A stretch of 64,000 nt of DNA from Giesbergeria sp. (GTDB taxonomy: Bacteria > Pseudomonadota > Gammaproteobacteria > Burkholderiales > Burkholderiaceae_C), in the NCBI GenBank assembly GCA_017985015.1, contig JAGNYI010000001.1, positions 62,001 through 126,000 of the forward strand, given 5' to 3'. Both the position numbers and the translations under genes were made by a program. Below, piece after piece: positions 5,301 through 63,008 of the stretch (positions are counted from its first letter, which is position 1; each line of letters begins with the position of its first letter). Below the pieces are notes generated by a model. The model was not told where the DNA came from. It saw nothing but the letters and a program-made list of their open reading frames with translations, and searched no databases.

Positions 5301-5357
5301 TACTATTGTTTTGATAGCTTCTATCGCTTATGGGGTAAGCGCTAGAGCCTGTTTTTA
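5301..5357 (-). repeat. Two-hairpin intergenic repeat, copy 1
   Basis: Copy in reverse orientation, beginning just after the ispH stop. The core is CGCTTATGGGGTAAGCG (hairpin 1). The neighbouring arm has ACTATTGTTTTGATAGCT (hairpin 2). It lies between convergent genes and could help end both transcripts, but this is inference. Confidence 0.8.
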
Positions 5358-5374
5358 TCTAAAGTTTTGCCTTT

Positions 5375-6046
5375 TTAGGTCCACAGATCCAGCGGCGGGT
5401 CCGCCGCCACCGCGCGCAGGATGTCGGTGCGTGAGATAAAGCCCTCCAGCAACCCAAGCTCATTGGTCACCGGCAGCCCGGGCAGGCCGGTGTCCAGCAG
5501 CACCGATGCCACGCGGCGCAGGCCTGTGCCTGCCGCCGCCGTGGGTACGGGCGAGATCATCACCTCGTCCACCAGCCGGCGCGCGCGCGCAATCGCGGCC
5601 GGCACGCCGCCAGGTTGCGGAATCAGCTCCAGCGGCACCATGTCGGCGCGCAGCAGTAGACCGATGACGCGGCCCAGCGTATCAACCACTGGAGCTTGCC
5701 CCACGCCATGCTGGGCCAGCAGGCTCCAGGCTTCGCTGACCAGTGCGCCCTGCGCAACAGTGAGTGCGCCGCGGGTCATCACGTCACGCACCAGAGTCAG
5801 CGGCTGGCGCGCCACGCTTGGGCCCTGATCGGTTTGCGCATAGGCACTGACGGCGCCCTGCGCCCGCAGGCTGCCAAAGGCGCTGTCGTAGGCGGCGGGC
5901 GTCACGGTTTCCGCCTGCGCCGTCCCGCGCGGGCCGGTGGCACGCAGCGCCTGCGGGCGCCGCACCCGGCGCACGGACGCAATGCGCGAGAGCTGCTCGG
6001 GGCCGCCACGGTACATCTGCCCTGAAGGACCAAAAACAAAAAACAT
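5375..6046 (-). CDS. CBS-pair domain protein with N-terminal extension
   Basis: Cytoplasmic protein of about 223 aa. The N-terminal 80 residues have no recognisable domain (MFFVFGPSGQMYRG at the start). They are followed by two CBS motifs, at about residues 80-140 (RDVMTRGALTVAQGA, VVDTLGRVIGLLL) and 165-220 (EVMISPVPTA, GLLEGFISRTDILRAV). The ATG at 6046 has a perfect GGAGAG 4 nt upstream; the frame is open to 6178 but without support. CBS pairs usually sense adenylates, and the effector partner is not evident here. It is not closely similar to the smaller CBS protein at 1396. Confidence 0.85.
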   Translation of the reverse strand: MFFVFGPSGQMYRGGPEQLSRIASVRRVRRPQALRATGPRGTAQAETVTPAAYDSAFGSLRAQGAVSAYAQTDQGPSVARQPLTLVRDVMTRGALTVAQGALVSEAWSLLAQHGVGQAPVVDTLGRVIGLLLRADMVPLELIPQPGGVPAAIARARRLVDEVMISPVPTAAAGTGLRRVASVLLDTGLPGLPVTNELGLLEGFISRTDILRAVAADPPLDLWT

Positions 6047-6135
6047 GGCGCTCTCCTGCACGCGGGATGCGTCGGCCTCCATGTTATCGGCATCTGCCGC
6101 CCCGACTTCAGGCGGGCGCCGCCTAAAATCTTGCC

Positions 6136-61119: not shown

Positions 61120-61755
61120 TCAAAGCCCAAGCGCTGCCAGCTTGCCGCGCCCCTCGCGCACCACCTCGGGGTCGCCGCCTTTTTCCATGGGCGTCAGGTC
61201 CAGCACCGTGGTGGGCTGCGACGGGCAGGCGCCCGCATCGATCACGCCATCGATGAGCTTGTCGAAACGGGCCAGGATTTCCTCGGCGTCGTTCATGGAT
61301 TCCGTCTCGCCCGGTGCGATCAATGTGGTGCCCAGCAGCGGCCCGCCGTGCAACTCCAGCAACGCCTGCAGTGCGGCGCCTTCGGGCACGCGCAGGCCAA
61401 TCGTCTTGCGGCTGGGGTGGCTCACGCGGCGCGGCACTTCCTTGGTGGCGTCGAGGATGAAGGTGTACGGCCCCGGCGTGCCCAACTTGAGCAGCCGGTA
61501 CTGGCGATTGTCCACACGTGCGTAGCTGGCCAGTTCCGAGAGGTCGCGGCACAAGAGCGTGAGGTGGTGCTTGTCGTCCACGCCGCGGATGCGGCGCAGG
61601 CGGTCCACGGCGGCCTTGTCGTCCAGCTGGCAGACCAGGGCGTAGCTTGAATCGGTGGGCACCGCCAGCACGCCACCTTGCTTGAGCAGCGTGGCGGCCT
61701 GCTTGATGAAACGGGGCTGGGGGTTCTCGGGATGAACTTCGAAATACAGGGCCAT
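61120..61755 (-). CDS. yciO: YciO/TsaC-family (Sua5-YciO-YrdC) protein
   Basis: 211-aa YrdC-fold protein. GGVLAVPTDSSYALVCQL, KHHLTLLCRDLSELASYA and GLRVPEGAALQALLEL match YciO, which has the tRNA threonylcarbamoyl-AMP synthase fold but is not the main TsaC enzyme in E. coli. Activity on t6A synthesis is therefore uncertain. It lies 24 bp downstream of the PHP phosphatase gene, a conserved pair. Confidence 0.9.
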   Translation of the reverse strand: MALYFEVHPENPQPRFIKQAATLLKQGGVLAVPTDSSYALVCQLDDKAAVDRLRRIRGVDDKHHLTLLCRDLSELASYARVDNRQYRLLKLGTPGPYTFILDATKEVPRRVSHPSRKTIGLRVPEGAALQALLELHGGPLLGTTLIAPGETESMNDAEEILARFDKLIDGVIDAGACPSQPTTVLDLTPMEKGGDPEVVREGRGKLAALGL

Positions 61756-61779
61756 GGGGGGCTGGATGGGAAAAGGGCT

Positions 61780-62643
61780 TCAGCGGCCCGGATGGATATG
61801 CGCTGCCACCAGGTCCCAGGCGGGCGTCAGGTTGGCTGGCAAGGGGGGCAGGGTGCCCAGATCGGTGTGGGATTCGTCGGGGCTGTGGAAGTCGCTGCCG
61901 CGTGATGCCGCCAGGCCCAGTTCGCGCGCCAGGTCGGCGTAGCGCACGGCCTCGCTCGCGGAGTGGCTGCCGGTCACCACTTCGACGCCGCGCCCGCCGT
62001 GCTGCTGGAATTCGGAGAACAGCGCAAATTCTTCGTTTGCCGTGAAGCGGTAGCGCGCCGGGTGTGCGATGACGGCCACGCCGCCCGCTTGCGTGATCCA
62101 GCGCACCGCGTCCCCCAGCGAGGCCCAGCGGTGGGGCACGTAGCCGGGCTTGCCTTCGATCAGGTATTTGCGAAAGACCTCGGACGTATCGCGGCAGACT
62201 TTGGTTTCCACCAGAAAACGCGCAAAGTGGGTGCGCGAGACCAGTTCCGGGTTGCCCACATAGCGCAGGGCACCCTCGTAGGCGCCGGCGATGCCTACGG
62301 CGGCGAGCTGCTCGGCCATGTCGCGGGCGCGCTCGTTGCGCCCGCCGCGCGTGGCGGCCAGGCCCTGGATCAGCTGCGGATCGCTCGGGTCAAACCCCAG
62401 GCCGACGATGTGCACCGTGGTGTTGGCAAACGTGACGGAAATCTCCACGCCGCTCACGTAGGCCATGCCGAGCGTCTGGGCCGCCGCGAGCGCGCGGGCT
62501 TGCCCACCCACTTCGTCGTGGTCGGTCAGGGCCCACAGGTCCACACCATTGGCGTGGGCGCGGGCGGCCAGCAATTCGGGCGTGAGGGTGCCGTCGGAGA
62601 CGACGGAGTGGCAGTGCAGGTCGGCGTTGGCGTAGGTGGTCAC
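61780..62643 (-). CDS. PHP-domain phosphatase (RnaAM/TrpH/YciV-like)
   Basis: 287-aa metal-dependent phosphoesterase. Motifs DLHCHSVVSDGTL, WALTDHDEVGG, SGVEISVTF, VAVIAHPARY and SRGSDFHSP supply the three-metal PHP site. Family members act as 3',5'-nucleotide bisphosphatases and 5'-3' exonucleases on small RNA ends. The start is GTG 62643 (MTTYANADLHCH). yciO follows. Confidence 0.92.
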   Translation of the reverse strand: MTTYANADLHCHSVVSDGTLTPELLAARAHANGVDLWALTDHDEVGGQARALAAAQTLGMAYVSGVEISVTFANTTVHIVGLGFDPSDPQLIQGLAATRGGRNERARDMAEQLAAVGIAGAYEGALRYVGNPELVSRTHFARFLVETKVCRDTSEVFRKYLIEGKPGYVPHRWASLGDAVRWITQAGGVAVIAHPARYRFTANEEFALFSEFQQHGGRGVEVVTGSHSASEAVRYADLARELGLAASRGSDFHSPDESHTDLGTLPPLPANLTPAWDLVAAHIHPGR

Positions 62644-63008
62644 CGATTCATTCTACGGGTATGTCCCCATAGGCGCAGCGCGGTCGGCGGCACCAGGCGC
62701 TACCCTTTGCGGGTACGGACGTCCTTTTCAAGATGTGTGCCAGCGCCGCTGCGCCCGCGCCCCGCCGCGCCGCAGGACCGAACGATGACTGGGAAAGCTT
62801 CTGACGCAGGCACTTTGCCAGGCCCGATCGACCCGGCTGAGAGCGACAGATCACTATTGAAAAGTAGTGCTATCAATGCCTGTTGCATGGTCGCTAAAGC
62901 CCTATTTTTCTCAAATACTTGGGAGCGAGTTCGGTCGGCGGGCCGGGGCATGGCCCGCCAGCGGCGCCGGGCGCTTTTACAATTCGCCCCCCTCACCGAG
63001 AACCCACC
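62644..63008. other. Intergenic region with a degenerate repeat
   Basis: 365 bp between the divergent PHP and yqhA genes. The only structure I see is a degenerate two-hairpin repeat at 62852-62909. No open frame with family similarity is present. Confidence 0.6.
62852..62909 (-). repeat. Two-hairpin intergenic repeat, degenerate copy 11
   Basis: TCACTATTGAAAAGTAGTGC, TATCAATGCC, GCTAAAGCCCTATTTTT. It reads as a reverse-oriented relative of the variant copy at 23921 (ATGCA, AGGCA/AGCAC and the AAAAATAGG end agree). Confidence 0.5.

Follow-up and report, generated by a model that had tools for sequence, protein, structure and literature searches.

A REP-like repeat beside stop codons in Giesbergeria and other Comamonadaceae, tentatively read as an inherited gene-end element

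In a 64,000-nucleotide stretch of the genome of Giesbergeria sp. (assembly GCA_017985015.1, contig JAGNYI010000001.1, positions 62,001 to 126,000; the whole of it is here called the window) we find an element of about 70 bp that carries two palindromes, recurs in both orientations and lies beside stop codons more often than chance placement would give. The element looks old and inherited rather than hopping, and it may be a gene-end signal. We tentatively read it as an old, vertically inherited cis element at the 3' ends of genes of the Comamonadaceae, resembling the REP (repetitive extragenic palindrome) repeats and probably acting as a stem-loop in the mRNA. Such a stem-loop is slightly favoured over a DNA-bound boundary and over the relics of an ancient mobile family.

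The element has a GC content of 39%, compared to 64% for the window, and the consensus of 55 aligned copies is AAATTTnnAGTnAAATnGGCCTCTAGCGCTTATnnnnTAAGCGCTAGnAGCTATnAAnnnnATAGCAT. Information per column rises steeply at one end of the element and is near zero beyond both ends. The parts follow one another as an A/T run, a second A/T run, the word GGCCT, palindrome 1 (hairpin 1, CTAGCGCTTA-loop-TAAGCGCTAG), palindrome 2 (hairpin 2, GCTAT-loop-ATAGC, its loop rich in A/T) and an A/T tail, and the core words AGCGCT and AGCTA are conserved at 87-98% per position. An earlier note on the same DNA had described the two palindromes, which are present, within an extent that falls short of the roughly 70 bp found here. 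The 9-mer AGCGCTTAT occurs 231 times in the host genome (3,368,410 bases in 110 contigs) versus 7 times for the reversed word, an abundance well beyond what chance would give. An iterated profile hidden Markov model (HMM) run over 460,516 host bases, namely the window and 20 further stretches, gave 65 copies of at least 18 bits, host copies below 18 bits being dropped; this density of about one per 7 kb extrapolates to several hundred copies in the genome. The element also shows up, in both orientations, among the repeats of the window, and the word counts together with the 65 sampled copies bear out the earlier claim of a repeat with many copies in both orientations. The 3' end (columns 62-67) of many copies resembles a Shine-Dalgarno word (AGGAG, AAGAG) and can adjoin the next start codon, for example at 13546 and 23984. 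One host copy (L014:19234-19304) differs from most: it forms a long, almost perfect palindrome with A and T runs at its ends and resembles a bidirectional terminator.

In order to place the copies relative to genes we used simple gene calls of our own (399 genes). Of the 65 host copies, 35 sit in tandem gaps; convergent gaps hold 15 and divergent ones 8, a further 6 fall within called genes, and the last is at an edge. Nearness to stop codons, proposed from the window alone, is confirmed above chance: 29 of the 35 tandem copies are no more than 25 nt from the upstream stop, compared to 20.9 expected when copies are placed at random in the same gaps, a count of 29 that random placement reached in none of 5000 trials. 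The median distance of the tandem copies to the upstream stop is 3 nt (16.5 nt at random, P 0.012). Convergent junctions are also enriched, with copies in 15/46 versus 43/347 (P 0.0013). Counted by gene, an element lies within 60 nt of the stop in 59 of the 399 genes and within 60 nt of the start in 25.

Two profile HMMs, c.hmm and m2.hmm, were run on the window. The first reports nine copies at E <= 2.4e-6 and the second eight at E <= 2.6e-11 plus half of the copy at 18606 (E 5.6e-4), values that flatter the secure copies since at least eight of the nine belong to the training set; in the reversed window the best c.hmm match has an E-value of 2.8. The earlier note had listed eleven copies, of which nine are secure, while that at 62852 is marginal and that at 39358 lies inside the aroA coding sequence. 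They are given below with their neighbours and, where compared, their counterparts in two genomes of the same genus, G012 and G007.

5298..5366, minus strand: element copy abutting or overlapping the stop of ispH (4331-5299, plus strand) at a convergent junction; m2.hmm E 3.6e-15.
13478..13546, plus strand: element copy with a 2-hydroxyacid dehydrogenase gene (stop 13485) on one side and an rmuC gene (called start 13546) on the other, neighbours named by Pfam; m2.hmm E 1.8e-14; HMM matches at the site in G012 and G007, with an alignment for G012 only.
18606..18673, plus strand: element copy with a degenerate 5' half in a divergent intergenic gap; c.hmm E 2.4e-6, m2.hmm E 5.6e-4 (half only); found in G012, no HMM match in G007.
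23912..23980, plus strand: element copy with a winged-helix gene (MarR-like according to the earlier note; stop 23908) on one side and, on the other, an oxoprolinase/hydantoinase gene (called start 23984), neighbours named by Pfam; m2.hmm E 5.5e-12; also at the site in G012 and G007.
27691..27759, plus strand: element copy at a convergent junction, overlapping both called stops (27697 on the plus strand, 27748 on the minus strand); m2.hmm E 6.7e-18; also in G012 and G007.
35799..35867, plus strand: element copy overlapping the stop of an HU/IHF-family gene (35865-36179, minus strand; Pfam Bac_DNA_binding); m2.hmm E 5.7e-13; also in G012 and G007.
39349..39419, plus strand: element-like stretch in frame within the aroA part of the aroA-cmk coding sequence (38159-40171, minus strand); E 0.003-0.006; supported by its counterparts of 37.6 bits in G012 and 35.7 bits in G007, though away from any gene end.
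43586..43654, plus strand: element copy in a tandem gap, 30 nt past the stop of the upstream gene (43685-46378, minus strand); m2.hmm E 1.3e-13; also in G012 and G007.
58617..58685, plus strand: element copy at the convergent junction of a gene at 55402-58617 (plus strand) and tyrS (58702-59991, minus strand); m2.hmm E 2.6e-11.
61052..61120, minus strand: element copy at the stop of a Sua5/YciO/YrdC gene (61120-61755, minus strand); m2.hmm E 7.2e-16; also in G012 and G007.
62843..62915, minus strand: marginal, degenerate copy with an HMM E-value of 0.03-0.08 only and no usable orthologue comparison.

The HMM scan of the window also agrees with the earlier remark that the island at 49-53 kb is free of copies. 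The island itself (49111-52953), which follows the tmRNA gene (48724-49110), lacks any match longer than 300 bases in the corresponding, syntenic part of G012, and the adjoining segment 52953-60186 is 98% identical to G012 where the neighbouring matches are about 86-89%, as if it had been recently exchanged.

The element is widespread, and unevenly so, beyond the host. Among 299 sampled genomes of the family, 41 contain the word GATAGCTNNNNGCGC 40 times or more, with a maximum of 370, and in those 41 its reversed word occurs 0-6 times. Pattern counts of this kind vary strongly within some genera (156, 3 and 2 in the genus g137; 59, 2, 1 and 1 in g23), and a multi-genus covariance model agrees with the counts for both. 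Such patterns miss other dialects of the element: genome G302 has 6 occurrences by pattern, yet 16 of its 16 scored candidates fit the model. In the covariance-model scans, which under stricter filters scored up to 16 candidates per genome for the family and up to 25 for the order, a match was found in at least 127 of the 299 family genomes and at least 69 of 141 genera, and among 200 genomes of the order six outside the family have one match each among the candidates scored. A stricter pattern, applied to named genomes, gave 34 stretches, including Acidovorax, Comamonas, Diaphorobacter, Alicycliphilus, Simplicispira, Paracidovorax, Paenacidovorax and Ottowia, and it is from these genera that we take the family name Comamonadaceae. 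The same pattern gave single matches in unrelated bacteria that, judged by pattern only, may be due to chance.

Copies recur at matching places in other genomes, those after ispH and tyrS also across genera. Within the genus, G012 has an HMM match at the matching place for all ten comparable window copies, although at 58617 this is little informative because the region is the one 98% identical to the window; G007 has 8 of the ten in the region compared, and its ispH copy is on another contig. Across genera, we examined the ends of ispH and tyrS in 30 element-rich genomes from 22 genera (27 of the 41 above plus G001, G006 and G007), scoring an element as present when it reached E < 0.05 and started between -20 and 110 nt from the stop. 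An element follows ispH in 23 of the 30 (6/6 of the same genus and 17/24 others) and tyrS in 11 (5/6 and 6/24), in one orientation throughout at each locus, fractions that are not representative of the whole family since the genomes were chosen as element-rich. Reversed controls at these loci gave 0 matches; the tyrS match in G133, retained among the 30, is a distant relative with 40% identity.

Within aroA-cmk the in-frame, element-like stretch is found, by eye, at the same codons in 18 of 24 sequences including that of the window, after exclusion of the rows of G012 and G049, whose motif was missed by the script, and of the partial row of G008. The isoleucine codon in this stretch is ATA in 18 of 18 rows with the element compared to 53 of 943 isoleucine codons overall (those 18 included), a count that is partly circular because rows were sorted into with and without element by viewing the same sequence. 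The data do not show strong synonymous constraint over the stretch: its 20-codon window has a synonymous identity of 0.722, where the mean is 0.674, and a value at least as high is reached in 245 of 924 windows. Two copies inside called coding sequences of the host (C44:11956-12024 and C43:702-770, on L028 and L026) have similar translations (FAIN/FAID...SASS or SAYASS...), which would suit an element that supplies protein sequence.

As an inherited gene-end element it would be retained because it is useful to the host. Were it an mRNA stem-loop, it would be transcribed together with the upstream gene, and hairpin 1 (CTAGCGCTTA / TAAGCGCTAG) would fold at the end of the message, where it could shield the mRNA from 3' exonucleases, aid the end of transcription, or both, as is thought for REP stem-loops. 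Because the stem is nearly palindromic, either orientation could serve. Hairpin 2 and the A/T runs, for their part, seem to be features of the sequence and not of a conserved fold. We take the folding results as modest evidence that the first stem is maintained; for the second stem they offer none. Folding compared with column shuffles was strongly positive on both strands, a result that is less clean because shuffling also breaks neighbour correlations, and for this reason we used arm-swap tests, in which whole hairpin arms are exchanged between copies and then folded. With 51 multi-genus copies the swaps gave z values for hairpin 1 of -3.3 and -2.6 on the two strands; the swapped hairpins fold about 0.7-0.9 kcal/mol more weakly, and were as stable as the real ones in 0 and 3 of 300 swaps (0 and 1 of 300 in a repeat). 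With 32 rows from the ispH and tyrS loci the corresponding values were -2.9 and -2.4. At ispH, moreover, the stem is followed on the sense strand by a T run in 21 of 23 copies.

Other results weigh against such a stem-loop. Fixed-pair covariation is absent: in the host the paired fraction is 71.5% both as observed and after shuffling; 134 copies from seven genomes of the same genus gave z -0.13 for hairpin 1 and -0.95 for hairpin 2; the test across genera gave nil; and 18 ispH orthologues gave P 0.058 and 0.125, respectively. RNAalifold predicted zero pairs on alignment A2. Arm swaps within the host and its relatives gave z -1.0 to -1.4 for hairpin 1, where control splits that spare the stem reached -2.0, and hairpin 2 showed no significant effect within the genus or across genera. 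The multi-genus control splits themselves range from -0.1 to -1.9 (51 rows) and from -0.2 to -2.7 (32 rows), so that part of the effect at hairpin 1 may not be pairing, and the rows share ancestry; the split at column 22 is not a clean control, as it may cut pairs that extend the stem. These partly positive controls slightly lower our estimate of the RNA reading and slightly raise that of a DNA-level role. Furthermore, a terminator scan of window positions 1-20000 flagged one of three copies, at a place away from hairpin 1; on the sense strand at tyrS the stem is followed by an A run in 7 copies out of 11, by a T run in 3 and by another tract in 1; tandem copies show a balance between the orientation opposite to the upstream gene (19) and the same one (16); and 6 of the 65 copies lie within called genes. 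The evidence on the earlier suggestion of paired RNA at mRNA ends is mixed: a modest multi-genus signal at hairpin 1, no fixed-pair covariation, within-genus swaps that do no better than their controls, and no significant effect at hairpin 2.

The closest competitor, in our judgement still on the unlikely side, is a double-stranded DNA site in which two palindromes flanked by A-tracts would be bound at the ends of transcription units by a nucleoid, topology or boundary protein, much as BIMEs (bacterial interspersed mosaic elements) are bound by gyrase and IHF, and either orientation would serve. Columns 13-16 hold nothing but A or T in 124 of the 134 copies, and a TpA step occurs in 3 of those compared to 54 in column shuffles; in the host alone TpA occurs in 2 of 59, versus 733 of 2021 (36%) A/T-only 4-mers of other intergenic DNA. 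Runs of A and runs of T both occur at these columns, as would suit an A-tract read at the DNA level. The core words that are conserved while the arms vary independently in the fixed-pair tests, the balanced orientation and the copy in the middle of the aroA open reading frame point the same way. However, the arms of hairpin 1 do co-vary to some extent in the multi-genus swaps, the A-tract signal of the other three tracts is weaker or mixed, homopolymers are common in intergenic DNA anyway (711 of the 2021 A/T-only 4-mers), and the tract spacing is taken from the consensus only. At tyrS the copies suit an A-tract acting in the DNA better than the T run of a terminator, and those at ispH, with their sense-strand T runs, fit either; this is chiefly why we keep a DNA-level role under consideration.

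We regard as doubtful that the copies are relics of a REP- or MITE-like (miniature inverted-repeat transposable element) mobile family which spread in the ancestor of the family and survived mainly after stops, where it would be harmless. Consistent with such an origin are the patchy copy number within the genera g137 and g23, the copies inside called coding sequences, and the site at 61052, where the copy is absent and a short gap is found instead in four genomes of the same genus (G004, G006, G003 and G001). The host also has one Y1 transposase match, a RAYT-like gene (REP-associated transposase) that scores 76.3 bits against NCBIfam REP_Tyr_transpos, below the cut-off of 80, and Y1 matches are common in the family (222 of 299 genomes), somewhat more so among element-rich genomes (36/41 versus 186/258 others; Fisher P 0.034 with kinship ignored), a mild sign of an old link. 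Against this, 63 host copies have a mean pairwise identity of 0.562 and a maximum of 0.768, and neither target-site duplications (flanks share k-mers no more than shuffled ones, k 4-7, P 0.17-1.0, among the 63) nor, by eye, a long terminal inverted repeat in the consensus was found. The element copy of at least 18 bits nearest to the host Y1 gene is about 4.4 kb away, and 5 of the 41 element-rich genomes (G003, G115, G215, G274 and G288), including all three sampled from genus g104, have no Y1 match. The one-orientation copies at ispH and tyrS and the avoidance of TpA would be unexpected for decaying dead copies. Active or recent transposition is not supported, given the maximum identity of 76.8%, the lack of target duplications and the absence of a Y1 match from some element-rich genomes; the copies show no trace of having moved recently, though an ancient spread by a Y1-type enzyme is possible. 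A mobile element that targets gene ends, the other role once proposed, is not supported, given the shared one-orientation copies at ispH and tyrS and the same identity, duplication and Y1 results.

It is improbable that the element is simply the usual intrinsic terminator of the family, read mainly on its minus strand. Like intrinsic terminators it has a GC-containing stem and, on one strand of most copies, a T run; in the minus-strand reading a few more pairs could be added to hairpin 1 (by eye), with a T run behind it whenever columns 13-16 are A, as happens in 50 of the 65 host copies and, at ispH, in 21 of 23. Unlike them it has no orientation bias in tandem genes (19 versus 16), many sense-strand A runs, as at tyrS, and a copy in the middle of aroA. 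Nor is there a clear tie between A/T state and orientation, with 15 A, 3 T and 1 other among opposite tandem copies and 15 A and 1 T among those of the same orientation, and canonical terminator-like hairpins of the window (7581-7617 and 9694-9717) look different. A DNA-uptake or recombination signal spread by transformation would suit the high density, both orientations and the copies in coding sequence, but is very improbable indeed, with just 6 of 65 copies in called genes and known uptake words being far shorter than a 70-bp element of two palindromes.

The same copy can be traced after the same gene across genera, as at ispH and tyrS, so that gain, loss and constraint become measurable gene by gene, and the contrast in copy number among sister species amounts to a natural experiment on what maintains such elements. 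A bolder extension, which we think rather unlikely, is that the copies form a lineage-wide inherited gene-end class in which hundreds of genes would each have their own ancestral copy, its place and orientation kept by a dedicated RNA- or DNA-binding trans factor; if this were true, loss of the trans factor would explain sister species with almost no copies. REP-like repeats are usually seen as transposase-driven clutter that is sometimes co-opted. For annotation, it matters that the element overlaps stop codons and that an element-like stretch lies within aroA.

The earlier note knew of no name for the repeat, and we likewise found none in Rfam or in the searched open-licence literature, outside which most subscription papers fall. 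Rfam has no match to the element; at the gathering score the window yields only tmRNA and a tRNA, and a single copy scanned alone gave only a sub-threshold match to OxyS (24.4 versus 75 bits). The element differs from a MITE in having neither long terminal inverted repeats nor target-site duplication. The BRE (Beta-proteobacterial repeat element) is described in the relevant passages of PMC3110155 as about 90 bp long, with Bordetella copies that average 69% GC and are in some cases tandem, and is counted there also in Polaromonas, Delftia, Acidovorax and others. Our element has a comparable length and occurs partly in the same genera, but at 39-40% GC and with no two of 65 copies starting within 500 nt it is set apart by that description. 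A second dispersed repeat of the window (60064-60295), GC-rich and different from the element, has dozens of matches of about 70-94% identity, part or full length, in the host, G012, G004, G003 and G007, with fewer in the sampled host stretches, and by composition might be related to BRE. The Bor repeats of Bordetella, in the passages of PMC1590033 that treat them, are REP-like stem-loops of 26-30 bp close to coding regions; they are likewise stem-loops near coding regions, but shorter, and are set apart by description.

The REP superfamilies are marked, in the sections of PMC3733652 that define them, by a GTAG or CGTC tag, the GTAG REPs being often, not universally, accompanied by RAYT genes, and the abstract of the same paper names proposed roles in mRNA stabilisation, supercoiling and termination. 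REPs within 15 nt of stops are stated to affect translation in PMC12306157, and BIMEs to be bound by gyrase and IHF in PMC2817692; on these two cases the mechanisms proposed here are modelled. The element departs from this class in being about 70 bp long with two dissimilar palindromes plus A/T runs, in having no GTAG or CGTC tag above column expectation (GTAG at columns 44-52 in 16 of 134 copies, 17.8 when shuffled, and at columns 62-71 in 14 of 134, 23.3 when shuffled; CGTC in 0-3 of the 134 per region), in not being tied to a RAYT gene, as judged from the flanks of the host gene and from the element-rich genomes that have no Y1 match, and in being shared at two gene ends across genera. Like the REPs and BIMEs of enterobacteria and pseudomonads it is short, palindromic, high in copy number, extragenic (58 of 65 copies in gaps) and often near stops, and although it fails their tag and RAYT tests, it is these repeats that the element works most like.

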